Below are positions 27,389 to 56,217 of a DNA stretch of 64,000 nt, in pieces. Source of the DNA: Caulobacter sp. UNC358MFTsu5.1 (GTDB lineage: Bacteria > Pseudomonadota > Alphaproteobacteria > Caulobacterales > Caulobacteraceae). The DNA lies in the NCBI RefSeq assembly GCF_000712075.1, contig NZ_JONW01000005.1, positions 1,307,001-1,371,000 on the forward strand. The letters are read 5' to 3'. The notes under the pieces are model-generated. The model was not told the DNA's origin. It searched no databases and saw nothing but the letters and a program-made list of their open reading frames with translations. Each line of letters opens with the position of its first letter. Position 1 is the stretch's first letter. The translations under genes were made by a program, and so were the position numbers.

Positions 27389-30300
27389 ATGAAATCGCTA
27401 AGCGCTCGGGTGTTGATGCTTCGCATTAGAGAGCGACAGTGGATCAAGGCGATTTCTTCCAGCGATCTATTCGATCGTGAGTATTATCTTTCGTCACACG
27501 ACGATGTCCGGCTCGATGGCATCGATCCGATTTTGCACTATGTGAGATACGGCGCCCAGGAAGGCCGCAACCCTTCACCGACCTTCAGCACCCAGTTCTA
27601 CCTGAACGGCAATCCAGACGTCGCCCGTTCCGGCATCAATCCGCTTTATCACTACCTGAAGTACGGCAGATCCGAGGGGCGCGTCGCCACTGATCTGAGC
27701 GCCCAGGTCGAATATATTGTCGCGAGCGGACTGCTGGACCGCGATTTCTATCTGCGGACCTATGCCGACGTGGCGGCGGCCGGCATGGATCCGGCGGTCC
27801 ACTATCTTTCCAGCGGGCACCGGGAAGGCCGCAATCCGAGCGGCCTCTTCGACACCCAACAATACCTGGCCGACAATCCCGAAGTCGCGGCGCAGGGCGT
27901 CAATCCCCTGATGGACTTCCTGGCGCGGGGCGGCCGGCGCGACGACCTGGCCGGCGAGACCCGGGCCCAGATGCGCCTGGTCTCGACCAGCGGCCTGCTG
28001 GATTCCGCCTACTACCTGGCCCGCCACCCCGAGGTGGCCGCCGCGGGGGTCGACCCCATCTGGCACTATATGGAGCGGGGCTGGCGCGAGGGGCATAACC
28101 CCAGCGAGAAGTTCTCGACCCGGCGCTACCAGCGCCGCTACCTGCAGGACGACAGCGTGAACCCGCTGTTGCACTACCTGCTGATCGGGCGCGGCCGGGG
28201 TTACGAGATCTCTCCGCCGCTGTCGCGAAACCACGAAACCTGGGGATCAACGTCGCGCCAGGACTGGACGGTGCTGTTCCAGGAGAGGCTGGCCGAGCGG
28301 GTGAAGGCGCTCGAAACCATGGACCTCGGCCGGGTCACCAAGGGCGCCGCGCCGACCTTCTCGATCATCACGACGATCTACGACACCGACCCCAAGTTCC
28401 TGGACGCCCTGGCCCGGACGATCCAGGCCCAGGCCTATCCGTTCTTCGAATGGGTGATCCTCGACAACGGCTCGAAGACGCGGAAGACGATCGACGCCTG
28501 CGTCGAGATCGCCGCGCGCGACCCGCGCTTCCGACTCTTCCGGGTCGAAGACAACCTGCACATCATCGGCGGCAATCGCTACGTCTTCGAACGGGTCAAG
28601 GGCCACTACGTCGTGCCCGTCGACTCCGACGACATCCTCTATCCCGACTCCCTGGCCCTGTTCGCCAAGGCGCTGAGGGAGGCCGGGGACGAAAAGCCCG
28701 TCCTCATGTTCAGCGACGAGCAGAAGGTCGACGAGGACGGCGAGCCCGTCGAACTGATCTGGCGCTGGGACTTCGCGTTCGCGCACGCGATGGCCACGGC
28801 CCCGGCGGCGCACCTGATGGTCTATTCGACCGCCGTGGGCCGCGAGGTCGGCGTCTATACCGACGACTACGCACGCGGGTCGCACGACTGGGACACGGCC
28901 CTGCGCATCACGGAGAACGGCGGACGGGCCGTGCATGTCCGCGAGGTGCTGTACGGCTGGCGCATGCACGCGGAGTCCACCGCCCTGGCCACCTCGGCCA
29001 AGGACTATATCGGCGGCTCGCAGTACGAGGTGATGGAGCGGTCGCTCGCCCGCCGGGGCCTGCAGGACAAGTTCCAGGCCGGCTCGCTGTTCGAGGGCGT
29101 CGTCGGCTGGTACGCCACCCGGCGCAAGGAAATCCGCGACGTCGGCGTCCACGTCGATCTCGTCCTCCAGGACATCGACGATCTCGACACCCTCCGGCAC
29201 AATCTCGACATGGTCGCCGGGGCCGCCACGGTCCGGCGCGTGCTCTATCCGACCCGGCTCAAGGACCAGGTCCAGGACCTGATCGCCGACGCGGGGCTCG
29301 TGACCAAGGCGTACGGCTCCGACAGCGCCCTGGCGACCCTGATCAACCAGGCGCCGGCCAAGGCCTTCGCCAAGGTGATCGTCTCGTCGAAGGTCGCGAT
29401 CCAGAACCGCCGGGCCCTCTGGGAAGCCGTGGGGACCCTGGAGCTGGACCTCAATTGCGGCGTGGTCGGCGGACCCGTGACCGACGCGGAAGGCACGGTG
29501 TTCAGCGCCGGTCTCCTGGCCGGCCTGCAGGGCTTTGTCGCCTCGCCCTTCTACGAATGGCTGAAAACCGAGACGCCCGGCCACATCTGGTCGATCGCGC
29601 GACCGGTGACGGGCCTCCCGGCGTTCTTCCTGGCCATCCGCGCCGACCTGCTGAGGCAGGGCCTGTCCCTCAAGGGACTGGACGTCGACGACGCCCTCCA
29701 CGGCCTGGAGCTGGGCCTCGACGCCGCCGCCATGGGCTATGGCGTCGTCCACGTGCCGGAGATGGAAAGCATTTCCGAGCAGGCCCTTCCCGAACTGATC
29801 GGGGCGGGCACCCCCGAGCGCACGCGCCTGCGGCGCAAGTTCGCCGGCATCCTGGACCAGGGCGCCTTCCCGAGCGTGCTCTCCCGTCAGGCGAACCGCT
29901 TCGGCATGCTGCGGCGGCCCGAGGAGCAGCTCCTCTCGACCGCGGTCGATCCGAAACTGTTCGCGCCGGCCGTGCCCCTGTCGCTGCGCGTGAGCCGCGA
30001 CCCGACGGGCCAGCCCACGATCAACCTGCTGCTGCCGGCCATCCGGATGGCCAGCATGTCCGGCGGCCCCAACACCGCGCTCAACCTGGCCTACCGCCTG
30101 GGCAAGGTCGGCTTCGCCGTGCGCCTGATCTCAACGGACGCGCCCATCGACGCCGACCATGAGCCGATCTGGCGTCACATCCAGGCGATCTCCGGCGTCG
30201 AGGAACGCCTGCCCAACGTCGAGCTCGTCGACGCCTCGGACCGCCGCAAGACCATCACCATCCACGAAAAGGACCTGTTCTTCGCGACCGCGTGGTGGAC

Positions 30301-33300
30301 GGCCCAGATGGCCAAGGCCGCCTCGCCGCTGGTGGGCGGACGGCCGTTCATCTACCTGATCCAGGACTTCGAGCCGATCCTCTACCCGGCCTCGAGCCAC
30401 TACGCCCTGGCCCTGGAGACCTACGGCCTCGAGCACATCCCGGTCGTCAACACCAAGCTGCTGAGCGACTTCCTGGTCGAGAACGGCATCGGCCGCCACG
30501 CCGATCCGGCCTTCGCCCGGACCGCGATCTCCTTCGAACCGGCCGTCTCGCGCGACGATTTCCATCCCGAGCCCCGCAAGGGCAAGAAGCGCAAGCTGCT
30601 GTTCTACGCCCGGCCCAACACGGGCGTGCGCAACCTCTACGAACTCGGCGTCGCGGCGCTGCAGATGGCGATCGCCTCGGGCGACCTGGGCGCGGGGTCC
30701 TGGGACTTCGTCGGGATGGGCGAGCCCTTCACGAGCGTCCCGCTCGGCCAGGACGCCACGCTGGAATGCGCGCCCTGGCTGGGCTTCGACGCCTATGCCA
30801 GCCAGATGCGGCAGGCCGACATCCTGCTGTCGCTGATGATGTCGCCCCACCCCAGCTACCCGCCGCTGGAGATGGCGGCGTGCGGCGGCCTGGTGGTCAC
30901 CAACGAATACGCCAACAAGGACGCGGAGCGGCTGGCGGCCGTCTCGTCCAACATCATCGCGGTCCCGCCGACCGTGGAAGCCGTGGCCGCGGCGCTGTCG
31001 CGCGCCGTCGACCGGCTGGAAGACGTCGAGGAACGCCACGAAGCGGCCAAGCTCGACCTGCCCCACACCTGGAGCCAGGCCCTGGCGCCCGTGCTGGAGG
31101 CCCTCTCCCGGCGGCTGATCGAACAGGGCGTCAAGCCCGACGCCCTGGAGATCGGCAAGAACGAGCCCCGCCGCCTGCCCCTCCCCGACCCGGAACGCGG
31201 CGTCGACGAGTACAACGCCTATCTCCGCGAGGCGCTCGCCGATCGCAAAGGGCTGTATCCCGCCGTCCAGGAAACCGGGCTGCTCAGCTTCGTGACCACG
31301 GTCTGGAACACCCCGCCCGCGTTCCTGGACGTGCTGGCGCGCAGCCTGGAGAACCAGGAGGGCGGCGCGGATTTCGAGTGGTACATCCTCGACAACGGCT
31401 GCACGCGCCCCGACGTCATCGCCTACCTGGCCAAGCTGGCCGAGAAGCCCTACGTGCGCCTCGAGCGCGTCGAGAAGAACCTCGGCATCATCGGGGGCAT
31501 GCGCCGCTGCCTCGAGCGCGCCAAGGGGCGCTATATCCTGCCCCTGGACTCCGACGACTACCTGACGCCCGACTGCGTCCGCATCGTCACCTGGCATCTG
31601 CGGAAGCACGGCTATCCCGCGCTGGCCTACACCGACGAAGACAAGCTCATGGGCGCCGAGCTCAGCGGCCCCTACCTGAAGCCCGACTGGGATCCCGTCC
31701 TCTTCGTCAACTCCTGCTACATCGCCCATCTCTGCGCGATCGACCGCAAGATGGCGCTCGAACTGGGCGCCTATACCGACGCCGAGGCGGAGGGCAGCCA
31801 CGACTGGGACACCTTCACCCGCTTCGCCCTGGCCGGCCACACGCCGCGGCACATCCCCGAAGTGGTCTACAGCTGGCGCATGCACCAGCAGTCGACGGCG
31901 TCGAACATCAATTCCAAGCCGGTGGTCTTCGGCTCACAGCGCGCCGTGCTCACCCGCTTCCTGAAGGGCCACGCCAAGGGCAAGCTCTTTGAACTGACGA
32001 AGAACCCGATGTTCGGCGAGACGCCGGACTGGTGGCTGCGCCGCCGTCGCGCGCCGGCCGCGCCGGGCCTGACCACGGTCGTGGTCTCCAACGGCTCGTC
32101 GCCCAAGAAGCACACGCTGCGCGTGCCCGCCAAGGTCGACCACCAGGTCTTCCACGTCGACCTGGCCAAGGGTCCCCACGCGCTGGTCGAACACGCCCGC
32201 GCCGCGGCGAAGGAAGGACGCCTGTTCCACGTCATCGCGGACGAGGTGGCGCCCGACAACGACGAGTGGTTCCACGAGGCCGTCGGCCATTTCGAGCTCT
32301 TCCCGGACGCCGTCATGATCGGGGGACGCATCCACTCCTACGGCGAGGTGCTCGCCGCCGGCTACGTCTTCGGCTTCGGCAAGGGCTGCGAGTGCCCGGA
32401 CCGCGGCCGCCGCCTCGCCGACCCGGGCTACGCCGCCCAGATGTGGAAGCAGCATTCGGTCAGCGCCGTGTCGGCGCTGCACGCGGTGATCAAGCCGGAC
32501 TTCCTGATCCGCGCCCTCGAGGAGATCGCGCCCTGGGGGCCGTCGACCGCGATGCTCGGCGCCTGGCTCGGCGCCAACGCGCGCAAGCACGGCGAGCGGG
32601 TGATCTATTCGCCCTTCGTCTCGGGCGAGACGGGGATCGACTGGGACAGCCTGGTCCAGGACGCGGAACACGCGCGGTTCGCGTCGTACGCCGCCGACAT
32701 CATCCCCGAACGCCAGCTGCTGCACCCGGACCTGGGCCTGACCCGGGCGACGGCCTATCGCCCGGTTCGCCGCTCCAAGTCGTCGGCCTCGCCGGCGGCC
32801 TATCCGGTGTGGCACGACCTCCAGGCCAAGGCCCGGACGGCGGTCGCCCCGGGCGGTCCGGTCAAGACGCGCTTCTCGCTGCTCACGACCCTGTACATCC
32901 GCACCGACGAGGCCCTGTTCCGCCGCACGGCCGAGACCGTGTTCGCGCAGCGCGACGTCGGTTTCGAATGGGTCATCCTGGCCCACGGCCCGATCAGCAA
33001 GGGCCTGAGGGCCTACCTGCGCACCCTGGCCAACGATCCGCGGGTCAAGCTGCACTATCTCGACGAGAACCTCGGCATCATCGGGGGCATGCAGCACGTG
33101 CTCGCGGCGGCCAAGGAGGACTACATCCTCCCGCTGGACGGGGACGATCTGCTGACGCCCGACTGCCTCAAGCTGCTGGCCCAGGCCATCGAGCACGCCC
33201 CGAATCCGCCGGCCTTCCTCTACACCGACGAGGACATCGTCATCGGCGAGGCCCTGCAGGCGCCCTACCTGCGCCCGGCCTGGGATCCGGTCCTCGACCT

Positions 33301-34330
33301 GGAGAACTCCTGGATCTGGCACGCCTGCGCGTTCCGTCGCGACCTGGCCCTGAGCCTGGGCGTCTATACGTTCAAGCCGAGCGAATACTGCCACGACTGG
33401 GACACGGCCTACCGCTTCTCGCGGGCGGGCCACCCGCTGGTCCACGTGCCGTCGATCGTCTACCACTGGCGCCACCACCAGGGCAGCACGTCCAACAACG
33501 GCGAGACCAGCAACGGATCGTCGAAGTCGGTCCAGGCCCTGCTGGCCGCGAAGATCGAGGACCGCGGCCTGTCGGCGGTCTGCGAGGTCGCGCCCTTCCC
33601 GATCTTCCGCGGCGCCGAGGAATGGTGGATCAAGCGCAACGCCGAGAACCTTCCCGACATCGTCGCCGTGGAGGTCTCGGCCTCTGACGCCCTGGGTCCG
33701 TTCACCGTCGGGCGCCGCGCGCGCGGCAAGGCCGTCCCGGCCTCGGCGTTCGTCGAGCAGGTGCGCGGCGCCAAGCCCGGCGACCTGGTGCTGATCCACT
33801 CGACCAAGGCCCAGAAGCCCCGCCAGGAGCTCCTGCTGGAAGCGGTCAAGATGTTCGAGTTCCACGACGACGTCGCCGTGGTCGCCGGACGGCTGGTGAA
33901 CGACGTGGCCGTGGTCGCCGCGGGCTGGATGGCCGACGGCCAGGGCCACCTGCACGCGCCCTACGATCAGCTGGCGCTGACCGATCCCGGGCCCTTCGTC
34001 CTTGGCTGGAAGCCGCAGACCATCTCGGCGGGCGTCATCGACCTCTGCCTGGTCAGGGCGGACTTCCTGCACGAGGCCCTCGCCGCGGCGCCGGCCGGCC
34101 TGGCCCCCGCCGAACTGGGCCTGTGGCTGGGCGCCTTCGCGGACCGCTCGGGCCGCCGGGTCGCCTACAGCCCCCTGATCGAGGGCAAGGTGCGCGGCCG
34201 GCCGCTCCATCCGACCGACAAGGCGAGCGTGCAGGTCGCCTGGAACGCCTTCACCGCCGGCTCCGCCGCCGGCGGCGAGGCCACCCCCGTCCGCGGCGCG
34301 GGCGGCTACGGCCTCAAGCGCTTCATCTGA
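27389..34330 (+). CDS. Giant multidomain glycosyltransferase: six repeats, three GT2 modules and one GT4-like module
   Basis: This 2313-residue cytoplasmic protein probably builds or extends the O-polysaccharide. Residues about 28-275 hold six units of roughly 35 residues with the pattern F-D-x-x-Y-L-x-x-N-P-D-V-A-x-x-G-x-(D/N)-P-L-x-H-Y-L-x-x-G-x-x-E-G-R. GT2 domains start near residues 318, 1297 and 1826; their acceptor/metal motifs are VDSDDILYPDS, LDSDDYLTPD and LDGDDLLTPD. Each is followed by a GT2-like companion lacking the DxD motif. A GT4/WsaF-like module (about 870-1250) has GGPNTALNLAYRLG and MSPHPSYPPLEMAACGG. No membrane helix is seen. The 5' end is less GC-rich and the ribosome site is weak. 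It sits beside methyltransferases and upstream of CDP-sugar and export genes. Confidence 0.88.
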   Translation: MKSLSARVLMLRIRERQWIKAISSSDLFDREYYLSSHDDVRLDGIDPILHYVRYGAQEGRNPSPTFSTQFYLNGNPDVARSGINPLYHYLKYGRSEGRVATDLSAQVEYIVASGLLDRDFYLRTYADVAAAGMDPAVHYLSSGHREGRNPSGLFDTQQYLADNPEVAAQGVNPLMDFLARGGRRDDLAGETRAQMRLVSTSGLLDSAYYLARHPEVAAAGVDPIWHYMERGWREGHNPSEKFSTRRYQRRYLQDDSVNPLLHYLLIGRGRGYEISPPLSRNHETWGSTSRQDWTVLFQERLAERVKALETMDLGRVTKGAAPTFSIITTIYDTDPKFLDALARTIQAQAYPFFEWVILDNGSKTRKTIDACVEIAARDPRFRLFRVEDNLHIIGGNRYVFERVKGHYVVPVDSDDILYPDSLALFAKALREAGDEKPVLMFSDEQKVDEDGEPVELIWRWDFAFAHAMATAPAAHLMVYSTAVGREVGVYTDDYARGSHDWDTALRITENGGRAVHVREVLYGWRMHAESTALATSAKDYIGGSQYEVMERSLARRGLQDKFQAGSLFEGVVGWYATRRKEIRDVGVHVDLVLQDIDDLDTLRHNLDMVAGAATVRRVLYPTRLKDQVQDLIADAGLVTKAYGSDSALATLINQAPAKAFAKVIVSSKVAIQNRRALWEAVGTLELDLNCGVVGGPVTDAEGTVFSAGLLAGLQGFVASPFYEWLKTETPGHIWSIARPVTGLPAFFLAIRADLLRQGLSLKGLDVDDALHGLELGLDAAAMGYGVVHVPEMESISEQALPELIGAGTPERTRLRRKFAGILDQGAFPSVLSRQANRFGMLRRPEEQLLSTAVDPKLFAPAVPLSLRVSRDPTGQPTINLLLPAIRMASMSGGPNTALNLAYRLGKVGFAVRLISTDAPIDADHEPIWRHIQAISGVEERLPNVELVDASDRRKTITIHEKDLFFATAWWTAQMAKAASPLVGGRPFIYLIQDFEPILYPASSHYALALETYGLEHIPVVNTKLLSDFLVENGIGRHADPAFARTAISFEPAVSRDDFHPEPRKGKKRKLLFYARPNTGVRNLYELGVAALQMAIASGDLGAGSWDFVGMGEPFTSVPLGQDATLECAPWLGFDAYASQMRQADILLSLMMSPHPSYPPLEMAACGGLVVTNEYANKDAERLAAVSSNIIAVPPTVEAVAAALSRAVDRLEDVEERHEAAKLDLPHTWSQALAPVLEALSRRLIEQGVKPDALEIGKNEPRRLPLPDPERGVDEYNAYLREALADRKGLYPAVQETGLLSFVTTVWNTPPAFLDVLARSLENQEGGADFEWYILDNGCTRPDVIAYLAKLAEKPYVRLERVEKNLGIIGGMRRCLERAKGRYILPLDSDDYLTPDCVRIVTWHLRKHGYPALAYTDEDKLMGAELSGPYLKPDWDPVLFVNSCYIAHLCAIDRKMALELGAYTDAEAEGSHDWDTFTRFALAGHTPRHIPEVVYSWRMHQQSTASNINSKPVVFGSQRAVLTRFLKGHAKGKLFELTKNPMFGETPDWWLRRRRAPAAPGLTTVVVSNGSSPKKHTLRVPAKVDHQVFHVDLAKGPHALVEHARAAAKEGRLFHVIADEVAPDNDEWFHEAVGHFELFPDAVMIGGRIHSYGEVLAAGYVFGFGKGCECPDRGRRLADPGYAAQMWKQHSVSAVSALHAVIKPDFLIRALEEIAPWGPSTAMLGAWLGANARKHGERVIYSPFVSGETGIDWDSLVQDAEHARFASYAADIIPERQLLHPDLGLTRATAYRPVRRSKSSASPAAYPVWHDLQAKARTAVAPGGPVKTRFSLLTTLYIRTDEALFRRTAETVFAQRDVGFEWVILAHGPISKGLRAYLRTLANDPRVKLHYLDENLGIIGGMQHVLAAAKEDYILPLDGDDLLTPDCLKLLAQAIEHAPNPPAFLYTDEDIVIGEALQAPYLRPAWDPVLDLENSWIWHACAFRRDLALSLGVYTFKPSEYCHDWDTAYRFSRAGHPLVHVPSIVYHWRHHQGSTSNNGETSNGSSKSVQALLAAKIEDRGLSAVCEVAPFPIFRGAEEWWIKRNAENLPDIVAVEVSASDALGPFTVGRRARGKAVPASAFVEQVRGAKPGDLVLIHSTKAQKPRQELLLEAVKMFEFHDDVAVVAGRLVNDVAVVAAGWMADGQGHLHAPYDQLALTDPGPFVLGWKPQTISAGVIDLCLVRADFLHEALAAAPAGLAPAELGLWLGAFADRSGRRVAYSPLIEGKVRGRPLHPTDKASVQVAWNAFTAGSAAGGEATPVRGAGGYGLKRFI

Positions 34331-34400: not shown

Positions 34401-35171
34401 TCAGGCCTTGCTGATGATCAGGGCGTCCTGCCCGCCCTCGGGATAGGGCCAGTAGCCCGACCACGACCCCAGGGCGATGCGCTCCAGCGTCAGGCCGGAC
34501 GCGCCGACCAGGGCCTTCAGGCGCTCCTCGTTGTAGGCTACCGCGCCCAGGGGGTGCTGCGGATCGTTGATCAGGCAGCCCTCGCCCCAGGGATGCTCGA
34601 ACCTCAGGTCGAAGGGCGTCAGGTTGGTCTCCCGCGCCTTGGCCAGCACGGCGTCGTTGTAGAGGAAGCAGGTCAGGAAGGCCCGGCCGCCGGGCTTCAG
34701 CACCCGCTGGAACTCGCCCAGATAGTAGGTGATGTAGTCCGACAGCATGTGCGTGAAGACGGACCAGGCGAAGACCCCGTCGACGCTGTTGTCTTCCAGC
34801 GGCATCTTGAAGGACCGCATGTCCTCCGTGCCCGTCGGATTGTGCAGCTGATCCGCCACATTGTAGTGGTGGAAATTGAAGTTGGGATGGCGCGGCGTGA
34901 GGTTGGCCGACAGCCAGGCGATCGAGTCGCCGATGATGTCCACGCCGTCGTAGCGGCCCTCGGTGATGATCTCGGTCAGCGGGATGGCGTCGCGGCCGAT
35001 GCCGCAACCGATTTCGAGAAGCCGTGAATCGCTCTTGATCCCGAGATAGCGGCGCAGGTCGGCGATGTGGGCCGTGGAGATCGCATCGAACGAGTCGGGG
35101 CCGCCGCCCGTCAGGTTCACTAGTCGTTCAGGGAGGTCATAACCTTTGAAGTTAAAGGTGTTTTCTGACAT
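34401..35171 (-). CDS. Class I SAM-dependent methyltransferase
   Basis: A 256-residue cytoplasmic methyltransferase. The SAM-binding motif I is LLEIGCGIGRDAIPL (about residue 51), followed by the acidic YDGVDIIGDSI strand, SVDGVFAWSVFTHM, and VLKPGGRAFLTCFLYND as motif III. It probably modifies a sugar of the O-polysaccharide or caps its end, judged by position between the giant glycosyltransferase and two other methyltransferase-type genes. The substrate is not determined by sequence. Its 5' leader up to 35293 is AT-rich, and it is separated by about 120 bases from the next gene on the same strand. Confidence 0.8.
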   Translation of the reverse strand: MSENTFNFKGYDLPERLVNLTGGGPDSFDAISTAHIADLRRYLGIKSDSRLLEIGCGIGRDAIPLTEIITEGRYDGVDIIGDSIAWLSANLTPRHPNFNFHHYNVADQLHNPTGTEDMRSFKMPLEDNSVDGVFAWSVFTHMLSDYITYYLGEFQRVLKPGGRAFLTCFLYNDAVLAKARETNLTPFDLRFEHPWGEGCLINDPQHPLGAVAYNEERLKALVGASGLTLERIALGSWSGYWPYPEGGQDALIISKA

Positions 35172-35293
35172 TTCTGCTCTCTACCGAAGAAAAAACGACG
35201 CATCGGGACCAAGATTTCAGACAAGTTATAAGTTGAGTGGGGCCTCGAGCAACGAAAGTCTTTGACGCCTTCGGAGGCGACGGCGGATCCGGT

Positions 35294-36373
35294 TCAGGCG
35301 CGGGGCGCCACGAACAGCTTCTCCGTGAACGCCGGGATGACCTCGTCCACCGCCTCCAGCACGGTGGACCATCCGGCGGGGGCCGGCAAATTCGTCGACC
35401 GGAAGTCGAAGGCGTCGTGCTCGTTGCGCCAGACCGTCCAGTTCTTGGTGTAGATCGCCTTGGAGGCGGCGCTCATCATGTTCATGTAGGCGGCGATCTG
35501 CTCGGGCCTCATCTCGTGCAGGGCGGAGATCGCCGCAAAGCAGTCGACGATGCCGGCGGGGACATGCCGCAGCTGGTCGATCGTGAAGATCGCGATGTCC
35601 GCGGCCATGACCTCGTCGGCGACCTCGTCCCAGCGCGCGAAGGGCCGCCAGCGGAAGATCTTCCGATCGGGAAGCGCCTCCGCCAGATGCCATTCCGCCA
35701 CCGCCAGGGCCGGCGGGATGTCGAAGATCCAGTAGCGCAACGGCTTCAGCTGGCTCGCGACATAGCCCAGCCGCCCGTATCCCGCCCCGATCTCGGCCAG
35801 GATGGGGCGCTCGCCTTCGAGGACGGGCCGCATGCGGGTGAACTCGCGCAGCGAATTGGCCAGGTCCTGCGAAACGGCCCGGCCCTGGACATTGATGGGA
35901 ATGGGATTGCCGACCGCCGCCTCGGCCAGCTTGTCGCCGTCGCCCGGAGCCGCGCGCTTGGTCGCGTGCCACCACAGCAGGCCGACGAACAGCGTGTAGC
36001 CGCGCGCCGCGCTGGGCGAGAGCAGATAGCTGGTGTCGTTGATGCTGAGCACCGCCGGATCGCCGAGCAGCTCGGCCTCCAGCGGCAGGGCGCTGGGATC
36101 GTCCGCCCATTCGCGCAGCAGGCTCTGCATCTGCGGGTCATTGGGGCCTTCGACGGCCCAGTTGAAATAGTTCTGCGCCAGAGTCCGCTTGAAGTTCTCG
36201 ACGCCGTGCCGCGACAGCAGCGCCTCGTTCTGGCCGCCGATGTCCGCCCAGAAGCGTCCAGCCTGGAACAGTTCGGGTCCGGCCTCGAGCAGGCGGCGCA
36301 TCGCGGTCGAGCGTGCGAGGAGCGCCTCGGTCACCGCCGGCTGTCGGGGTTTCATCGGTTCGTGAGTACGCAT
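35294..36373 (-). CDS. Putative sugar O-methyltransferase
   Basis: This 359-residue protein resembles the family annotated as putative sugar O-methyltransferases of polysaccharide clusters. A glycine-rich SAM motif, ILAEIGAGYGRLGYVASQ, lies near residue 196. The N-terminal half shows FKRTLAQNYFNWAVEGPNDP and GYTLFVGLLWWHATKR, and the C-terminus ends with a short conserved segment. I chose the ATG at 36373 because AAGGAAG sits five bases upstream; a start at 36505 would overlap the divergent gene's leader. O-methylated sugars, such as 3-O-methylglucose, have been reported in Caulobacter O-chain, consistent with such a role but not proof. Confidence 0.75.
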   Translation of the reverse strand: MRTHEPMKPRQPAVTEALLARSTAMRRLLEAGPELFQAGRFWADIGGQNEALLSRHGVENFKRTLAQNYFNWAVEGPNDPQMQSLLREWADDPSALPLEAELLGDPAVLSINDTSYLLSPSAARGYTLFVGLLWWHATKRAAPGDGDKLAEAAVGNPIPINVQGRAVSQDLANSLREFTRMRPVLEGERPILAEIGAGYGRLGYVASQLKPLRYWIFDIPPALAVAEWHLAEALPDRKIFRWRPFARWDEVADEVMAADIAIFTIDQLRHVPAGIVDCFAAISALHEMRPEQIAAYMNMMSAASKAIYTKNWTVWRNEHDAFDFRSTNLPAPAGWSTVLEAVDEVIPAFTEKLFVAPRA

Positions 36374-36495
36374 TGAGCTTCCTTGGCGGACTTGGTCCTC
36401 CGCCCTTACCGCAGAATCATCACGCTTTCGCCTGGCGACGTTTGTCATTAGGCAGGGGTTGATCAACGAATCGAAGCTTGCCGGGAGCTTGCGTG

Positions 36496-37227
36496 ATGAC
36501 GGCATCGACTTCCCCGCCCGTGCGCCCGCCGATCGGCGCGTTCAAGCCCTACTACCGCGACGCCGACCTGACCGCCGAAGAGCAGCAGATCGTCGACCGC
36601 TTCCACGACCTCTACTATTCCAAGCTCGACGGCGGCGTGGGCCTGCACACGATCGTCCTGGCCTGGATGGGCCACGAGATGTTCAAGTGCCCGATGGACC
36701 TCTGGCTCTATCAGGAGCTGATCGTCCTGCGGCGACCGAACCTGATCATCGAGACGGGGACGTACAAGGGCGGCAGCGCGTTGTACCTGGCGTGCATCTG
36801 CGACATGGTCGGCGAGGGCTCGGTCGTGACGGTCGATATCGACGACACCCATCGCGCCATCCAGCCGCAGCATCCGCGCCTGCGCTATGTCAGCGGCTCG
36901 AGCACGGCCCCCGAAATCTTCGCCCAGGTCGCCGCCCAGGCCGCGGCGGCCGGTCCCGAGGTGATGGTGATCCTCGACAGCGATCATCGGCGCGACCACG
37001 TCCTGGACGAGCTGCGCCTGTACAGCGAGCTGGTGCCCGTGGGCGGCCTGCTGGTCGTCGAAGACACCAACGTGAATGGGCATCCGACCTATCCCGAGTT
37101 CGGACCGGGCCCCTGGGAGGCCGTCGACGCCTTCCTGGCCGAGAACCCCCGGTTCGTGGCCGATCGGTCCTTCGAACGCTTCCTGCTGACCATGAACCCG
37201 CGCGGCGTCCTGCGGCGCGTCGAATAG
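36496..37227 (+). CDS. CmcI-family (cephalosporin hydroxylase-like) methyltransferase
   Basis: A Rossmann-fold protein of 243 residues in the CmcI family, whose members in polysaccharide loci are SAM-dependent methyltransferases acting on sugars. Key segments are LIIETGTYKGGSALYLA (SAM loop, about residue 84), VTVDID, VILDSDHRRDHVLDEL (the conserved Asp-Ser-Asp-His), and LLVVEDTNVNGHP. The ATG at 36496 has GGGAGC about eight bases upstream. An in-frame TTG at 36478 is less likely. It is divergent from the sugar O-methyltransferase across roughly 120 bases and runs into a GT2 gene 42 bases downstream, so the two probably share a transcript. Confidence 0.78.
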   Translation: MTASTSPPVRPPIGAFKPYYRDADLTAEEQQIVDRFHDLYYSKLDGGVGLHTIVLAWMGHEMFKCPMDLWLYQELIVLRRPNLIIETGTYKGGSALYLACICDMVGEGSVVTVDIDDTHRAIQPQHPRLRYVSGSSTAPEIFAQVAAQAAAAGPEVMVILDSDHRRDHVLDELRLYSELVPVGGLLVVEDTNVNGHPTYPEFGPGPWEAVDAFLAENPRFVADRSFERFLLTMNPRGVLRRVE

Positions 37228-37269: not shown

Positions 37270-38835
37270 ATGTTCTCCGTCCTTATCCCCAGTCGGAATC
37301 GACTCAACCTGCTCAAACTCGCCGTCGAGTCGGTCCGGCTGCAGGATTTCGGCGACTTCGAGATCGTGATTTCCGACAACGCCTCGGACGACGACTATCG
37401 CGGCTATGTCGACGAGCTCGGCGATGCGCGCGTGCGCTATCTGCGGTCGGATTCACCGCTGTCTGTGACCGAGAACTGGAATCGCGCCCTGGAGGCGGCC
37501 CAGGGCGACTATGTCGTCATGCTGGGCGACGACGACGCCATGGCGCCGGGCTATCTCAGCCATCAGGCGTGGCTGATCTCGGCCTTCGATCGACCCGACG
37601 TGCTGTACGCCAACTGCTACCACTACACCTATCCCGGCGTGATCGCCGGCGCGCCGGACGGCTATCTGGCGACGGTCGACAACAGCGTCCTCTTCCACGA
37701 TCGCAACGCGCCCTACGAGGTGGACCTGGACTGGGCGCGACGCCTGGGCGTCATGGGGCCCGCCTTCCGTCACCAGATCAGCTTCAACGCCCAGCACTAC
37801 ATGTACCGGCGCGACTACATCCTGTCGCTCGCCGACCTCGGACCGTTCTACCAATCGCCCTATCCGGACTACTATGTCAGCTTCCTGACCTTCCTGACCG
37901 CGGCGCGGATCATCGCCGATCCGCACCCGCGCATGATCATCGGGATCGCCAAGCAGTCGTTCGGCTTCTACTTCATGAACCAGCGCGAGGAGGAGGGACG
38001 GCTCCAGTTCCTCAGCGCGCCCGTCGACACCGCCTTCCTGTCAGGCGGCGACCCTGCCGTCGTCGAGGCGATCGAGCGGCCGGGGGTCGCCCACGTCCGC
38101 AACTGGCTCCTGGCCGCCCTGCAGCTGAAGCAAAGGCTGGCCGGACGCATCGAGGTCGCGGTGGACCTGCGCCGGTACCGACGCCTGCAAACGATGGAGA
38201 TGGCGCTCCTGGCCGGCTACGAGACCCGCGAGCCGCGCCGCGCCTATTACGACTACATGCGGGGCCTGAGGGGCGCCGACCTGGCCTTCGCGCGACGCGC
38301 CCTGCGCTCGGCCATGACGGTCAAACGCCTCAAACTGCCCGACACCCGCTCGATCATGTGGGGCTATCAGAGCCTTCTCAACACCTACCATCCCGCCACC
38401 GTCGCCTATCACGGGATCCCGAGCCACCAGGACATCCTCGACGCCGTGCGGTGGCTGGCCCTCCCGGCCGAGGCCGCGCCCGAGCCCGAGCCGGCGACCG
38501 CCGCCCCCAGCCTGGAAGAGCAGCTGGCGCGGAGCCAGTCGCAGCTCCAGTCCCTCAACGAGGCCCACGCCGCGCTCGCCCGACGGGGCGATGAACTGGC
38601 CGCCGCCGCCGAGCAGGCCGCCGGCGAGACGCTAAGGCTGGCCGCCGAGCTTGAATCGACCGTCCGGTCGCGGAAGGCCGGCCAGGAACGCGAACGCCTG
38701 CTGACCGCCGAACGCGACGAACTGCTGGGTCAGCGCGCCGCGCTGGAACGCTCCCTGCCCTGGCGCGCCACCCGGACCCTGCGGGCTTTCCTGGCGCGCC
38801 TGGACCGGAAGCCGCCGGATCTCACGCCGCTCTAG
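37270..38835 (+). CDS. GT2 glycosyltransferase with C-terminal coiled coil
   Basis: The 521-residue protein begins with a canonical GT-A domain: FSVLIPSRNRLNLLKLAVES, FEIVISDNASDDDY, and the metal motif VMLGDDDAMAPGYLS near residue 90. The catalytic domain ends by about residue 290. Residues about 405-490 are Ala/Glu/Leu/Arg-rich heptads predicted to form a coiled coil, and the ending SLPWRATRTLRAFLARL is an amphipathic basic tail common in O-antigen glycosyltransferases, possibly for membrane contact. Sugar specificity is unknown. It follows the CmcI-like gene. About 200 bases then separate it from the CDP-sugar operon. Confidence 0.85.
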   Translation: MFSVLIPSRNRLNLLKLAVESVRLQDFGDFEIVISDNASDDDYRGYVDELGDARVRYLRSDSPLSVTENWNRALEAAQGDYVVMLGDDDAMAPGYLSHQAWLISAFDRPDVLYANCYHYTYPGVIAGAPDGYLATVDNSVLFHDRNAPYEVDLDWARRLGVMGPAFRHQISFNAQHYMYRRDYILSLADLGPFYQSPYPDYYVSFLTFLTAARIIADPHPRMIIGIAKQSFGFYFMNQREEEGRLQFLSAPVDTAFLSGGDPAVVEAIERPGVAHVRNWLLAALQLKQRLAGRIEVAVDLRRYRRLQTMEMALLAGYETREPRRAYYDYMRGLRGADLAFARRALRSAMTVKRLKLPDTRSIMWGYQSLLNTYHPATVAYHGIPSHQDILDAVRWLALPAEAAPEPEPATAAPSLEEQLARSQSQLQSLNEAHAALARRGDELAAAAEQAAGETLRLAAELESTVRSRKAGQERERLLTAERDELLGQRAALERSLPWRATRTLRAFLARLDRKPPDLTPL

Positions 38836-39008: not shown

Positions 39009-39040
39009 GTACGGACGAGGCCTAAGTGCTTCGGCTCAAA

Positions 39041-39877
39041 ATGGGGATGAGAATACTCGTGCGCTCAGATGTACCTGTCTTCATTTTGTGCGGCGGCCTC
39101 GGCACCCGCCTGCGGGAACAAACGGAGTTTCGCCCGAAACCAATGGTCCCGATCGGCGGTCAGCCGGCGCTTTGGCACATCATGCGCCTCTACGCGCATT
39201 TCGGCTTCCGTAAGTTCGTCCTCTGCATGGGATATCGCAGCGAAGTCATTCGGGAATATTTCCTGAACTTTCATCGCATGACTTGCGACGCGACCGTTCA
39301 ACTGGGCACCGACCAGGTGACGTTCCATTCCGTGGAAGGCCTCACCTCCGAGGCGGATTGGGAAGTGACGCTGGCCTATACCGGCGAACTGACCATGACC
39401 GGCGGCCGCGTGTTCCAGGCGGCCTCGCGCTACCTGGGCGACGCCGAGCATTTCGCCGTGACCTACGGCGACGGCGTCACCGACGCCCACATCGGCAACG
39501 AGTTCAAGGATCACGTCGCCACCGGCAAGATCGGCACCGTCCTGGGCGTCAATCCGCCGTCGCGGTTCGGCGAGTTCAAGTTCGACAACGGCGAGGCCTT
39601 CGGCTTCGAGGAAAAGCCCGAGATCGAGGATCACTGGATCAACGGCGGGTTCTTCTTCTTCAAGCGCCAGTTCATGTCCTACCTGAACGACGATCCGGCC
39701 CTGGTCCTGGAGCAGAACCCGCTGCGCAAGCTGGCGGCCGACCGCCAGTTGAACGTCTTCAAGCACAGCGGCGAATGGGCCTGCATGGACACCCAGCGCG
39801 ACGTCGAGACGCTGAACAAGGCGTGGACCGAAGGCCGGGCGTTCTGGGATCCGTCGCACCTGCCGCCCCGCACCTAA
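39041..39877 (+). CDS. rfbF: Glucose-1-phosphate cytidylyltransferase
   Basis: It makes CDP-glucose from CTP and glucose-1-phosphate, the first step towards CDP-linked deoxysugars. The nucleotide-binding loop FILCGGLGTRLRE is followed by RPKPMVPIGGQPALWHIM and the RfbF-type core MGYRSEVIREYFLNF, YGDGVTDA and GFEEKPE. Length (about 278) matches the family. The start is uncertain: ATG at 39041, ATG at 39047 and GTG at 39059 are all in frame, and the GTG has the better-spaced GGGATGAG upstream. The next gene, CDP-glucose 4,6-dehydratase, begins 12 bases after the stop, confirming the pathway. Confidence 0.9.
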   Translation: MGMRILVRSDVPVFILCGGLGTRLREQTEFRPKPMVPIGGQPALWHIMRLYAHFGFRKFVLCMGYRSEVIREYFLNFHRMTCDATVQLGTDQVTFHSVEGLTSEADWEVTLAYTGELTMTGGRVFQAASRYLGDAEHFAVTYGDGVTDAHIGNEFKDHVATGKIGTVLGVNPPSRFGEFKFDNGEAFGFEEKPEIEDHWINGGFFFFKRQFMSYLNDDPALVLEQNPLRKLAADRQLNVFKHSGEWACMDTQRDVETLNKAWTEGRAFWDPSHLPPRT

Positions 39878-39889: not shown

Positions 39890-41035
39890 ATGTCATCCTC
39901 GTCCATCGCGCCCGCGTCGGGTCCGAAATCCGCCGACGCCGCGCTCCTGGGAGTCCCCAATCCGGCCTTCTGGGCGGGCCAACGGGTCTTCCTGACGGGC
40001 CACACCGGGTTCAAGGGCGGCTGGCTGGCGTTGTGGCTGGCGCAGATGGGCGCGACCGTGCGCGGCTATGCGCTGGCGCCGTCCACGAGCCCGTCGCTGT
40101 TCGACGTCGCCAAGGTCGCCGAGGTCACCGAGAGCGTCATCGGCGACATCCGTGACGCCGAGCGCCTGAACGCCGAGATCCAGGCCTTCAAGCCCACCGT
40201 GCTAATCCACATGGCCGCCCAGGCCCTGGTGCGTCCGTCCTATGACGATCCCGTCGAGACCTATTCGTCGAACGTCATGGGGACGGTCCACGTCCTGGAG
40301 GCCTCGCGCCGCTGCCCCAGCCTGGGCGCGACGATCATCGTCACCAGCGACAAGTGCTACGAGAACCAGGAAGTCATCTGGGCCTATCGCGAGACCGATC
40401 GCCTCAACGGCCACGACCCCTACAGCAACAGCAAGGCCTGCGCCGAGCTGGTGGCCTACGCCTACGGCCGCAGCTTCTACCACCAGCTGCCCGACCACGC
40501 CCTGGTGTCGGTGCGCGCGGGGAACGTGATCGGCGGCGGGGACTGGTCCAAGGACCGGCTGCTGCCCGACCTTCTCGAAGCGTTCGCCGCCGGGCGCGAG
40601 GCGATCATCCGCCGCCCCAAGGCCGTGCGCCCCTGGCAGCACGTTCTGGAACCGCTCTCCGGCTATCTCGTCGCGGCCCAGGCCAGCTTCGGGCGCGGCT
40701 CGTCCGAGAACCTGGCCTGGAACTTCGGCCCGCGCGAAAGCAGCAACCAGCCCGTCGGCACGCTGGCCAAGGTGGCCAGCGCCCTCTGGGGCGACGCCGC
40801 GAAATTGACCATCCAGGAAGATCCTAACGCCGTGCACGAGGCCGGGCTGTTGACGCTCGACTCGACCAAGGCGCTGATCGAGCTTCAATGGCGGCCGCGC
40901 TGGAACCTCCACGACGCGGTCGCCAACACCGTCGCGTGGCGCAAGGCGTTCGGCGAAGGCGCCGACATGGGCGCCGTCACGCGTCAACAGATCCAGCAAT
41001 ACGTCGCGACCGCCGCGGACGGCGCCGCTCAATAA
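39890..41035 (+). CDS. rfbG: CDP-glucose 4,6-dehydratase
   Basis: It converts CDP-glucose to CDP-4-keto-6-deoxyglucose with bound NAD. An extended SDR of 381 residues with the fingerprint FLTGHTGFKGGWLALWL, the TSDKCYEN segment containing the catalytic Thr/Asp/Lys area, and the YxxxK pair in DPYSNSKACAE. The RAGNVIGGGDWSKDRLLPD and RPWQHVLEPLSGYL motifs are characteristic of RfbG and separate it from dTDP-glucose dehydratase at 55152. It lies between RfbF and a C-methyltransferase in a tight operon (one base from the next ATG). The product is the branch point for the following genes. Confidence 0.92.
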   Translation: MSSSSIAPASGPKSADAALLGVPNPAFWAGQRVFLTGHTGFKGGWLALWLAQMGATVRGYALAPSTSPSLFDVAKVAEVTESVIGDIRDAERLNAEIQAFKPTVLIHMAAQALVRPSYDDPVETYSSNVMGTVHVLEASRRCPSLGATIIVTSDKCYENQEVIWAYRETDRLNGHDPYSNSKACAELVAYAYGRSFYHQLPDHALVSVRAGNVIGGGDWSKDRLLPDLLEAFAAGREAIIRRPKAVRPWQHVLEPLSGYLVAAQASFGRGSSENLAWNFGPRESSNQPVGTLAKVASALWGDAAKLTIQEDPNAVHEAGLLTLDSTKALIELQWRPRWNLHDAVANTVAWRKAFGEGADMGAVTRQQIQQYVATAADGAAQ

Positions 41036-41036: not shown

Positions 41037-42296
41037 ATGTCTACGGGAACCCTGACGATGCACGTTTCTCAGAGCTGCAGGCATTGCGGCCAACCAGTGA
41101 ATGTGGTGATGGCCGATCTCGGCGCCACGCCGGTTTCCAACGACTACCTGCGCCCTGAAGCGGTGGACGGGCCCGAGCCCTATTATCCCCTGCGCGCCCT
41201 GGTCTGCGAAAGCTGCAAGCTCGTCCAGCTGCAGGACTTCTTCAAGGAAGACGACCTGTTCCGCAGCGACTACGCCTATTTCTCGTCGTTCTCGACCAGC
41301 TGGCTCAAGCACTGCGAAACCTACGCCAACGCGATGATCGCCCGCTTCGGCCTGGGCGCCGACAGCCAGGTCGTCGAGATCGCCAGCAACGACGGCTACC
41401 TGCTGCAGTACTTCAAGCAGAACGGCGTCAAGGTGCTGGGCGTCGAGCCCAGCCTGTCGGTCGCCCAGACCGCCATCGACAAGCACGGCATCCCCACCGA
41501 GGTGGCCTTCTTCGGCTCGGCCACGGCCCAGGCCCTGGTGGACCGCGGCGTCCAGGCCGACCACATGGCCGCCAACAACGTCCTGGCCCACGTGCCGGCC
41601 ATCAACGACTTCCTCGACGGCTTCCGCATCCTGCTGAAGCCGCAGGGCGTGATCACCTTCGAATTCCCGCACCTGCTGCGCCTGATGGAGCAGTCGCAGT
41701 TCGACACGATCTATCACGAGCACTTCAGCTACATCTCGCTGCTGGCCGCCGAACGCATGCTCGACGTGGCCGGCCTGCGCGTGTTCGACGTCGAGGAGCT
41801 GCCCACGCACGGGGGCTCCCTGCGCCTGTTCGTCTGCCACAAGGACGCGGACTACGCCCAGGAGCCGCGCGTCGCCGCCGCCCGGGCGGCCGAGGACGCC
41901 GCCGGCCTGGGCGACATCGACACCTATCGCAAGTTCAGCGACGCCGTCCGCAAGGTGAAGCGCGACCTGCTCAAGCTGCTGGTCGAACTCAAGGAGGGCG
42001 GCGCCCGGATCGTCGGCTACGGCGCGGCGGCCAAGGGCAACACCCTGCTGAACTACTGCGGCGTCGGCGCCGACATGATCGACTACGTGGTCGACATGTC
42101 GCCGCACAAGCAGGGCCTCTACCTGCCGGGCACCCGCCTGCCGATCCTGTCGCCCGACCAGATCCAGAAGGACCGTCCCGACTACGTCCTGATCCTGCCC
42201 TGGAACATCAAGGACGAGGTCATGTCGCAGCTGGACGGCATCCGCGCCTGGGGCGGCAAGTTCATCGTCGCGATCCCCTCGCCCCGGGTCCTGTGA
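41037..42296 (+). CDS. SAM-dependent sugar C-methyltransferase (TylCIII/NovU type)
   Basis: Predicted to add a methyl group to carbon of a 4-keto sugar nucleotide, creating a branched sugar. The 419-residue protein has the three-part build of this family: an N-terminal zinc-binding segment with two Cys-x2-Cys pairs (CRHC near residue 14 and CESC near 58), a SAM domain with VVEIASNDGYLLQYF and VLGVEPSLSVAQTA, and a C-terminal domain with GYGAAAKGNTLLNYCG. Relatives act at C3 of dTDP-sugars in antibiotic pathways. Here the operon implies a CDP-4-keto-6-deoxyhexose substrate. The first ATG overlaps the preceding gene's end closely, and a second ATG lies 21 bases downstream. Confidence 0.82.
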   Translation: MSTGTLTMHVSQSCRHCGQPVNVVMADLGATPVSNDYLRPEAVDGPEPYYPLRALVCESCKLVQLQDFFKEDDLFRSDYAYFSSFSTSWLKHCETYANAMIARFGLGADSQVVEIASNDGYLLQYFKQNGVKVLGVEPSLSVAQTAIDKHGIPTEVAFFGSATAQALVDRGVQADHMAANNVLAHVPAINDFLDGFRILLKPQGVITFEFPHLLRLMEQSQFDTIYHEHFSYISLLAAERMLDVAGLRVFDVEELPTHGGSLRLFVCHKDADYAQEPRVAAARAAEDAAGLGDIDTYRKFSDAVRKVKRDLLKLLVELKEGGARIVGYGAAAKGNTLLNYCGVGADMIDYVVDMSPHKQGLYLPGTRLPILSPDQIQKDRPDYVLILPWNIKDEVMSQLDGIRAWGGKFIVAIPSPRVL

Positions 42297-42300: not shown

Positions 42301-42861
42301 ATGCGGAAGCTCGACGAACCTCTCGCGGGCTGCAGGCTGCTGGAGGGACCGATCTTTCATGACGAGCGCGGCTATTTCCGGCGGCTGAACACCGCCGGCG
42401 ACGCCGTCGCCAACGGCATGCCGGAGAGCTTCCGCCAGCAAGGGGCGTCCTTCAACCTGCAACGCGGCACGGTTCGCGGCCTGCATTTCCAGAAGGCGCC
42501 GTTCCTGGAGCACAAGCTGGTGCAGTGCGTGCGCGGGGCGATCTTCGACGTGATGGTCGACCTGCGCCCGGACTCGCCGACCTACGGCCGGCATTTCGCG
42601 GCGGAGCTGTCGGAGACCAACGGCCACATGCTGTACAGCGAGCCCGGTTTCGCCCACGGCTTCCAGGCCCTCACCGACGACTGCCTGGTGCTGTACCAGA
42701 TCTCGCCCGACCTCGTTCCGGGCGGCGCCGGCTCCGTGCGCTGGGACGATCCCGAGCTCGGTATCGCCTGGCCGCTGGACGCCGTGAACGTATCGGAAAA
42801 CGATCGCCGGGCGCCTTTATTTCGACAGCATGATCCGGCCCTAACCGCGCCGCGGCCTTAA
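42301..42861 (+). CDS. RmlC-family sugar-nucleotide epimerase (CDP-sugar branch)
   Basis: A cupin-fold epimerase of 186 residues. It contains GTVRGLHFQKAPFLEHKLVQ, with the catalytic His, VRGAIFDVMVDLRPDSPTYG, and EPGFAHGFQALTDDCLVLYQ with the second conserved His and Tyr. The family epimerises C3, C5 or both in 4-keto-6-deoxy sugars. Here it follows the C-methyltransferase by four bases, so its likely substrate is the methylated CDP-4-keto sugar. It is distinct from the dTDP-rhamnose RmlC at 54399, of similar length, showing that the chromosome keeps two copies for different pathways. Confidence 0.85.
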   Translation: MRKLDEPLAGCRLLEGPIFHDERGYFRRLNTAGDAVANGMPESFRQQGASFNLQRGTVRGLHFQKAPFLEHKLVQCVRGAIFDVMVDLRPDSPTYGRHFAAELSETNGHMLYSEPGFAHGFQALTDDCLVLYQISPDLVPGGAGSVRWDDPELGIAWPLDAVNVSENDRRAPLFRQHDPALTAPRP

Positions 42862-42875: not shown

Positions 42876-43820
42876 TTGGCTTCGTCTGTCCTCTTCACGG
42901 GCGCCAGTTCCTTCACCGGTCTTTGGTTCGCCGAGGCCATGGCCGAGCGCGGCCTGCGCGTGGTCGCGCCGCTACGGGGATCCGCGGACTCCTACGAGGG
43001 CGTGCGCAGTCGGCGGGTCGAACGTCTGCAGGCCTGCGCCGAGGTGGTGTTCGACTGCCCGTTCGCCACCCCGCGCTTCCTCGAACTGGTCGAGGCCGGA
43101 ACCTGGGACGCCCTGGCGCACCACGCCGCCGACATCGACGGCTACAACGGGTGGAGCTTCGATCCGGTCAGGGCGGTCCAGCGGAACGCCGCGGGCGCCG
43201 ATGTCGTCTTCGCCAAGATGGCCGAGCGCGGCGCCAAGGCCGTCGTCGTCACCGGCACCGTGTTCGAGGCCGGTTCGGGCGGCGCGCCCGGGTCCCTGGC
43301 CGCCAACCCCTACGGACTCTCGAAAACGCTCACCACCGAGACCCTGCGCCATTTCGCGGCCTGGTCGAACCTGCGTTTCGGCCGCTTCGTCATCGCCAAC
43401 CCCTTCGGCCCGTTCGAAGAGCGGCGCTTCGGCTGGTACATGTTCAAGACCTGGCTTTCGGGGAACGTCCCGGTCGTGCAGACGCCCGATTATGTACGTG
43501 ACAACGTTCCGGCGCCCGTGATAGCCGCCGCGTACGCGGACTATGTCGAGGCCATGATCAACGAACCGGCGACACCCGCCGCCCGGCGGCCTTCCGGATA
43601 CGTCATGAGCCAAGGCGCGTTCGCGCAGTTGATGGCCAAGGAGGCGTCCCATCGCCTGGGGCGCGATCTGTCCGTCGACTTCGCGCGGCAGATCGAGTTC
43701 TCCGAGCCCTATCTTCGCGTGAACGACGAGTTCAGCTTCGATCTCGCGGACATCCCACGGTTCTGGGATCAGTACGTCGAATACTACTCCGCACTGCACA
43801 AATCTGGAGACCTGAATTGA
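42876..43820 (+). CDS. NAD(P)-dependent sugar epimerase/reductase (extended SDR)
   Basis: The 314-residue Rossmann protein opens SVLFTGASSFTGLWFAEAM and carries the SDR catalytic pair in NPYGLSKT (Tyr-x-x-x-Lys) together with VVTGTVFEAG. By position it should reduce the 4-keto group of the CDP-sugar, completing the pathway. It is more divergent than RfbG or RmlB, so a 4-epimerase role cannot be excluded. The start is a TTG at 42876, the only start near the SDR fingerprint; the ribosome site is weak. The gene ends 28 bases before the exporter permease. Confidence 0.75.
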   Translation: MASSVLFTGASSFTGLWFAEAMAERGLRVVAPLRGSADSYEGVRSRRVERLQACAEVVFDCPFATPRFLELVEAGTWDALAHHAADIDGYNGWSFDPVRAVQRNAAGADVVFAKMAERGAKAVVVTGTVFEAGSGGAPGSLAANPYGLSKTLTTETLRHFAAWSNLRFGRFVIANPFGPFEERRFGWYMFKTWLSGNVPVVQTPDYVRDNVPAPVIAAAYADYVEAMINEPATPAARRPSGYVMSQGAFAQLMAKEASHRLGRDLSVDFARQIEFSEPYLRVNDEFSFDLADIPRFWDQYVEYYSALHKSGDLN

Positions 43821-56213: not shown

Positions 56214-56217
56214 GGCC

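Follow-up and report, generated by a model that had tools for sequence, protein, structure and literature searches.

How many working transferase centers can one polypeptide bring to a surface glycan, and what are the domains that stand beside them without a metal-binding motif? The question is raised by the gene at 27389-34330 (+) of a 64,000-nucleotide stretch of the Caulobacter sp. UNC358MFTsu5.1 genome (contig NZ_JONW01000005.1, positions 1,307,001 to 1,371,000; the window hereafter), which specifies a multi-module glycosyltransferase. The product is a single intact protein: its open reading frame (ORF) runs uninterrupted for 2313 codons from an ATG, its GC content by codon position (0.68/0.46/0.92) has the pattern of a real gene, and a homolog from Caulobacter endophyticus matches it over residues 7-2313. 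In its own 5.4-Mb genome the sole full-length match is the protein itself, the only other being one 28% stretch of glycosyltransferase family 2 (GT2). By computing domain identities, motif status, companion homology and gene context, we find four intact-looking transferase centers per chain, three of the GT2 type and one WsaF-type member of glycosyltransferase family 4 (GT4), along with three companion domains that are best read as degenerate second GT2 modules.

Modules of the Caulobacter protein

From the N- to the C-terminus, the protein comprises helical repeats, a GT2 with its companion, the GT4 module and two further GT2-plus-companion units. Pfam recognizes three Glycos_transf_2 stretches together with WsaF_N and WsaF_C.

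27389..34330 (+): multi-module glycosyltransferase, proposed polymerase, 2313 aa (ORF, Pfam, genome and relative matches)
27461..28189 (+): six HYxxxGxxEGR repeat matches, residues 25-267, predicted helical (motif scan, structure prediction)
28337..29137 (+): GT2 module 1, residues 317-583; DSDD, HDWD and WRMH intact (Pfam, motifs)
29144..29923 (+): companion 1, residues 586-845; best read as a degenerate second GT2, SSK at the NND-equivalent site (profile comparison, alignment)
29972..31138 (+): WsaF-type GT4 module, residues 862-1250; PHPSYPPLE at residue 1153 (Pfam, PDB match, motif)
31256..32053 (+): GT2 module 2, residues 1290-1555; DSDD, HDWD and WRMH intact (AlphaFold2 (AF2) model, Foldseek, motifs)
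32060..32713 (+): companion 2, residues 1558-1775; best read as a degenerate second GT2, ADE at the NND-equivalent site (AF2 model, Foldseek, alignment)
32843..33646 (+): GT2 module 3, residues 1819-2086; DGDD, HDWD and WRHH intact (motifs)
33656..34273 (+): companion 3, residues 2090-2295; best read as a degenerate second GT2, STK at the NND-equivalent site (alignment)

The three GT2 domains are mutually homologous (BLAST E-values of 3e-53, 2e-38 and 9e-65; z-scores of 57-101 over 200 shuffles). IIGG and HDWDT occur in all three, the metal-binding motif reads DSDD, DSDD and DGDD in modules 1 to 3, and the C-terminal signature reads WRMH, WRMH and WRHH. When the 13 GT2-plus-companion units of five proteins (both Caulobacter, both Azospirillum and one from a Hyphomicrobiales metagenome-assembled genome, MAG) are aligned, DxDD and both aspartates of HDWD are kept in 13/13. 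In a maximum-likelihood tree of 34 GT2 domains, with Methylocystis left out, each of units 1, 2 and 3 groups across proteins as a single clade (supports 98-100); the units therefore diverged before these proteins did, which rules out a recent tandem duplication within the Caulobacter gene.

The module between the first and second units scores 93.6 bits for WsaF_N and 150.3 bits for WsaF_C (PF21374 and PF22772; curated cut-off 27 each), and its top PDB relatives by sequence are the WsaF crystal structures 2x0d and 2x0e (E-values of 2e-41 and 1e-42). Donor-site residues described for WsaF are Tyr247, Arg249, Arg254 and Glu333, with Lys302 also important (PMC2943079), and the family signature is given as PHPSYPPLE (PMC3898925). 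By alignment to the PDB sequences, the first four are kept as Y1073, R1075, R1081 and E1161, and PHPSYPP[L/I]E is present in all six fused proteins considered here. By family and motifs, the module is a WsaF-type rhamnosyltransferase domain, with the activity itself a prediction. A search for the WsaF module in viral contigs gave no match.

The N-terminal repeats follow the consensus FDxxYYLxxxPDVxxxGxxPxxHYxxxGxxEGRxPS, of about 38 residues, in six copies at 27461-28189 of the window. An AF2 model of the stretch has a pLDDT of 81 and a pTM of 0.58; it matches neither a Pfam family at E<=1 nor a PDB fold at E<=0.001 (best E 3.0). The repeat stretch also matches many other long frames across the genus and class. 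In sum, the preliminary description of this locus, which had read the frame as one protein with three GT2 domains sharing the above signatures, a GT4-like insertion between the first two units, and mutually related companions without the metal motif, is borne out on each of these points; the helical repeats and the WsaF affinity of the insertion come in addition to it.

The companion domains and the wider family

The three companions resemble each other less than the GT2s do, yet significantly (E-values of 1e-5, 3e-5 and 1e-15; z-scores of 8, 10 and 26). An AF2 model of unit 2, comprising GT2 and companion (506 residues; pLDDT 86, pTM 0.85), has as its top Foldseek matches chains of heparosan synthase 2 and chondroitin polymerase, which contain two GT-A domains. 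As the longest of these alignments extend over 545-580 columns against a 506-residue model, we take the matches to span both halves of the unit, and attribute their root-mean-square deviation (rmsd) of >16 A to a different placement of the two domains.

A profile of the companions matched 19 frames among other loci, all 19 C-terminal of a GT2 match in the same frame. Those scoring <1e-6, 18 tandem GT2-GT2 proteins (the weakest of the 19, L032, being dropped), served as a canonical set: in every one, the first module has DHDD, while both NND and [FY]ND[VI]D are kept by the second. The spacing from DxDD to NND is 256-262 in 15 of them, the other three being scored as 204 because the script picked up an earlier NND. 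Aligned by hhalign, the 13 companions match the 18 canonical second GT2s with a probability of 98.5 and an E-value of 3e-15, against probabilities of 0.1-3.0 for the controls: canonical first GT2s (0.7), GT2s of the units (3.0), WsaF, the repeats and reversed companions. Because the canonical second-GT2 alignment reached about 90 residues upstream, overlapping the first GT2, it also matched the first-GT2 alignments (97.7 and 99.9); the part that aligns with the companions falls outside this overlap.

These results dispose of two other origins. Unrelated folds, the possibility that the preliminary description had itself raised against its companions, are ruled out by the structure prediction of unit 2, its Foldseek matches and the profile searches, which reveal relatives of second GT2s. 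A metal-less copy of the first GT2 is unsupported, the companions matching the second GT2 alone (0.7 for canonical first GT2s, 3.0 for unit GT2s). In all 13 companions the NND is lost, ND[VI]D is found in no companion row of the alignment, and the N-terminal nucleotide-binding part is shortened. Given the homology to second GT2s, the loss of NND and a module order like that of ORF6 of Klebsiella O7 (see below), the companion is best read as the dead second, NND-type module of a tandem GT2-GT2 protein and, judged by motif, not as an active partner. Between the two Caulobacter proteins, the ratio of nonsynonymous to synonymous substitution rates (dN/dS), computed by NG86 with a dS that is rough and unreliable at 92% GC at third codon positions (GC3), is 0.76, 0.60 and 0.85 for companions 1-3, as against 0.47, 0.27 and 0.49 for GT2s 1-3, 0.48 for the WsaF module and 0.31 for the repeats. 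The higher values point to weaker constraint on the companions with the frame still kept: companion reading frames are intact in all six fused proteins.

The core order, WsaF-type module followed by two GT2-plus-companion units (GT2c below), is present in all five relatives examined:

Caulobacter endophyticus, 2287 aa: order as in the window protein; 60% identity, matching window residues 7-2313
Azospirillum brasilense HAMBI_3172, 2114 aa: methyltransferase, repeats, core
Azospirillum brasilense ATCC 49958, 2833 aa: methyltransferase, repeats, GT2c, repeats, core
Hyphomicrobiales MAG, about 1804 aa: repeats, core
Methylocystis sp. MJC1 plasmid, 1788 aa: repeats, core

In the Methylocystis protein (L077:11284-16650), the first core GT2 has NADG in place of DxDD and the second keeps DADD; by its motif, the former is a module switched off in place. 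The full-length architecture appears rare. In the genus, at least 2 of 75 genomes have it (with the own genome counted), and in the class sample at least 1 of 385, this being the own genome; both counts are lower bounds since at most five (genus) or two (class) candidates were scored per genome. WsaF_C exceeds its cut-off in 4/385 class-sample genomes, own included. Matches also occur in 153 plasmid records, of which three were opened, including one from A. brasilense and one, without annotation, from Rhizobium. The former codes for a 1454-aa protein (L078:5836-10200) with repeats and two GT2-plus-companion units and no WsaF module; hence the unit also exists apart from WsaF.

Gene neighborhood, donors and a proposed mechanism

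The Pfam scan of the window covered 30 ORFs between 20401 and 62386, with the left 20 kb outside it. Downstream of the polymerase gene lie the following genes:

34401..35171 (-): putative methyltransferase (51% identity with an L005-cluster gene)
35294..36505 (-): putative sugar O-methyltransferase (84.6 bits for TIGR04371, cut-off 44)
36478..37227 (+): member of the CmcI/rhamnosyl O-methyltransferase family (above cut-off for PF04989, below it for NF045824)
37270..38835 (+): separate GT2 glycosyltransferase (Pfam)
39026..39877 (+): RfbF-like glucose-1-phosphate cytidylyltransferase (261.9 bits; cut-off 300, not reached)
39890..41035 (+): RfbG, CDP-glucose 4,6-dehydratase (460.7 bits, cut-off 278)
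41037..42296 (+): sugar C-methyltransferase (PF08421 and PF08484)
42301..42861 (+): RmlC-like epimerase belonging to the CDP-sugar cluster (148 bits; rmlC cut-off 156, not reached)
42876..43820 (+): NAD-dependent epimerase/reductase (Pfam)
43848..44675 (+): Wzm-type ABC permease (ABC2_membrane passes its cut-off; the top NCBIfam model, that for galactan Wzm, does not)
44672..45430 (+): Wzt-type ATPase, 252 aa (top NCBIfam model that for galactan Wzt, below its cut-off; Wzt_C not reported)
54399..57969 (+): rmlC-rmlB-rmlD-rmlA, dTDP-L-rhamnose synthesis (each over its NCBIfam cut-off)

We predict that the five genes at 39026-43820 make a CDP-linked, C-methylated 6-deoxyhexose. With these and rmlCBDA present, and with no gmd (GDP-mannose dehydratase) over cut-off in the genome, which removes GDP-rhamnose from consideration, the donors on hand are dTDP-L-rhamnose and a CDP-6-deoxyhexose that is probably C-methylated. 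The association recurs: homologs of RfbG and of the RmlC-like protein adjoin the core in all five relatives, the C-methyltransferase in four (none in the ATCC 49958 locus DNA examined), RfbF in four (with a partial match in ATCC 49958), and Wzm in three, namely C. endophyticus and both A. brasilense. Wzt was not seen in the C. endophyticus locus DNA examined. In both Azospirillum loci wzm-wzt lies directly upstream of the polymerase gene, and the Wzt proteins carry Wzt_C over cut-off (80.5 and 92.7 bits vs 30.4).

Several features of the neighborhood deserve record on their own. The three putative (O-)methyltransferase genes at 34401-37227, between the polymerase and the sugar cluster, might serve in decoration or in separate chain capping. 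On the minus strand at 53328-55109, the listed 593-aa frame overlaps rmlC and its GT2 part alone (residues about 262-475, Pfam) looks real, so that the true start is probably further downstream. The 905-aa frame at L003:18179-20896 of C. endophyticus matches the window GT2 gene 37270-38835 over residues 392-880; its 5' extension is probably spurious, as it overlaps a minus-strand gene, 18059-19138, that matches window 35294-36505. The segment 34401-45430 has a GC content of about 0.65-0.67 and a GC3 of 0.84-0.94, below most flanks, and is patchy in the genus; this sugar cluster may have been horizontally exchanged.

In glycan systems dependent on ATP-binding cassette (ABC) transporters, polymerase modules extend a lipid-linked chain, with one module per linkage type in WbdA, as described in PMC11231755. 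Chain length is there set either by a terminator, a coiled-coil ruler and a transporter with a carbohydrate-binding module (CBM), or by coupling of extension to export through a transporter without a CBM (PMC11231755, PMC10629545). Against this background, we consider it probable that the window protein is the multi-module polymerase of a surface glycan which the neighboring Wzm/Wzt exports, using dTDP-L-rhamnose and a CDP-6-deoxyhexose, with degenerate companions and an unterminated strategy. The WsaF-type and three GT2 modules would add sugars in turn at the non-reducing end of a lipid-linked chain, drawing on dTDP-L-rhamnose from rmlCBDA and on the CDP-linked 6-deoxyhexose of the adjacent cluster, probably C-methylated there. 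The companion on which each GT2 rests would descend from the NND-type second GT2 of a tandem ancestor like O7 ORF6; having lost its metal and catalytic motifs, the companion would serve, if anything, as a structural or acceptor-binding scaffold. The chain would then leave through the adjacent Wzm/Wzt. One module per linkage would imply a Caulobacter repeat with four linkages; in O7 ORF6, one GT2 module is described as adding two sugars (PMC11231755). It is from the computed features that we infer the activities, donors, linkages, order of addition, sugars per repeat and companion role, as well as the solubility of the protein.

With regard to termination, the window protein has no methyltransferase domain by Pfam and does not fit the terminated sub-type; the Caulobacter form, with no built-in terminator and a Wzt without a CBM, would thus follow the unterminated strategy. 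Both Azospirillum proteins have an N-terminal methyltransferase domain which, with their CBM-bearing Wzt, would fit the terminated one. The evidence for a coiled-coil-like stretch in the HAMBI_3172 protein comes from inspection by eye and sub-threshold Pfam matches only, and the best windows of a heptad-periodicity scan lie outside it.

Among the alternatives, one that we rate as doubtful, albeit worth keeping in view, is that the glycan is ABC-exported but is a capsule, an exopolysaccharide or an S-layer protein glycan as in Geobacillus, rather than a lipopolysaccharide (LPS) O-antigen. WsaE and WsaF are indeed described as making an S-layer glycan (PMC2943079), and no LPS-specific gene was recognized among the 30 Pfam-scanned ORFs. 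Against it, no oligosaccharyltransferase was recognized among these ORFs, and the NCBIfam models that Wzm and Wzt match best, though under cut-off, are those of galactan O-antigen export.

Other observations weigh against the polymerase proposal itself. No terminator was identified in the window, though this role could fall to one of the three stand-alone methyltransferases. The window also contains at least two further GT2 genes (37270+, 53328-), so the protein may not be the sole chain-building enzyme. The position of WsaF Lys302 is occupied by Trp in all six fused proteins, with the rest of the donor site kept. Two non-fused family members have Arg (L026) and Lys (L028) there, with PHPSYPPLE altered beyond PHPS; the Trp thus looks specific to the fused proteins. 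We accordingly name the module WsaF-type and not WsaF, and its donor may not be dTDP-rhamnose, or its handling of the leaving group may differ. The loss of DxDD in the first core GT2 of Methylocystis means that the number of active centers differs between relatives. Wzm/Wzt was not found in the L005 locus DNA examined. The incomplete gene table of the 354-kb Methylocystis plasmid likewise shows none in the stretches covered (60-168 kb), listing instead genes for a tyrosine autokinase, a MurJ-type flippase and a protein with an O-antigen-ligase domain.

This Methylocystis setting and the differing centers would suit an alternative in which the protein is a fused assembly line that builds a lipid-linked oligosaccharide repeat unit, to be flipped and then polymerized by a Wzy-type enzyme. 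We regard it as unlikely, as the clusters of the window, of C. endophyticus (Wzm) and of the two Azospirillum strains include an ABC exporter, and both Azospirillum proteins share with WsaE the possession of an N-terminal methyltransferase domain. That the companions are still catalytic through a metal-free mechanism, giving seven centers, is highly improbable: companion 2 retains an acidic pair (ADE) at the former NND site and the companions stay in frame in six of six proteins, but the motif losses, the shortened nucleotide-binding part and the faster evolution (dN/dS 0.60-0.85 vs 0.27-0.49 in the GT2 and WsaF modules) all speak against it.

Returning to the polymerase proposal, the earlier suggestion of four centers that assemble a whole O-antigen repeat and act as their own polymerase holds in part. 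The four intact-looking centers, Wzm/Wzt and two nucleotide-sugar pathways fit it; "whole O-antigen repeat unit" and "own polymerase" stay at the level of proposals, given the separate GT2 genes in the window and no ABC exporter annotated near the Methylocystis relative. A bolder version, improbable as a whole in our estimate, is that one chain makes an entire C-methyl-branched rhamnan. Its linkage pattern would be set by the fusion of tandem rhamnosyltransferases to a WsaF-type module, with chosen modules silenced in place (the second module of all 13 Caulobacter, Azospirillum and MAG units, and one first module in Methylocystis), the terminator a swappable N-terminal part and the helical repeats a scaffold. 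If true, the structure of the repeat unit could be read from module status along one gene.

What dictates the distribution of modules in ABC-glycan polymerases is described as unclear, with two or three modules per chain known (PMC11231755). The present proteins supply a natural series, in which the same WsaF-GT2c-GT2c core occurs with or without an extra GT2 unit, a terminator and a CBM, and with some modules switched off. By setting genes against sugar structures, one could test both the one-module-per-linkage rule and whether terminator and CBM go together. The series further reveals a GT2 partner that recurs although apparently dead, and it points to a CDP-linked sugar, probably C-methyl-branched, in the surface glycans of Caulobacter and Azospirillum.

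Comparison with known systems

In fold, unit 2 is closest to heparosan synthase 2 and the chondroitin polymerase K4CP, which likewise have two GT-A domains per chain, both of them active; their relative domain placement differs from that in unit 2 (rmsd >16 A in long alignments). The preliminary description had held the module order to be unlike that of known polymerases. Among the literature matches listed (on WsaE and WsaF, O-antigen polymerases with several modules, C-methyl sugars and the genera concerned, with subscription papers mostly outside coverage), there was no characterized polymerase of identical architecture; the order is nonetheless not unique, being shared by C. endophyticus.

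The nearest characterized relatives in kind are WsaE/WsaF, O5 WbdA with its three modules, O12 WbbB and O7 ORF6. As described, WsaE and WsaF of Geobacillus stearothermophilus combine a WsaF-type GT4 carrying PHPSYPPLE with two further GT modules, an N-terminal methyltransferase, shared with the Azospirillum forms, and wzm/wzt and rml genes in the cluster (PMC2943079, PMC3898925); the likeness to WsaE is drawn from its published description. Geobacillus WsaF is, however, a separate protein with Lys302, whereas the module with Trp is here fused ahead of two GT2-plus-companion units and, in Caulobacter, is itself preceded by a third. The C-terminal part of Klebsiella pneumoniae O7 ORF6 is likewise a tandem GT2, with DxDD at 975 and NxD at 1230 (a spacing of 255, from published residue numbers), a dTDP-Rha donor and an ABC pathway (PMC11231755). 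Both its GT2 modules are described as active, transferring rhamnose from dTDP-Rha, in contrast to the second module of all three Caulobacter units, which by its motifs is degenerate; ORF6 also has a methyltransferase-kinase and a coiled coil (PMC11231755). Klebsiella WbdA, compared by description, is similarly a single polymerase with a GT module for each linkage type (two modules in O3, three in O5), but these depend on GDP-mannose and work with a separate terminator, WbdD; the parts of that account drawn on here mention no WsaF or GT2-plus-companion unit (PMC11231755). The Caulobacter protein thus appears to be a new build within the WsaE/WsaF/WbdA class of enzyme, and its glycan probably contains rhamnose.

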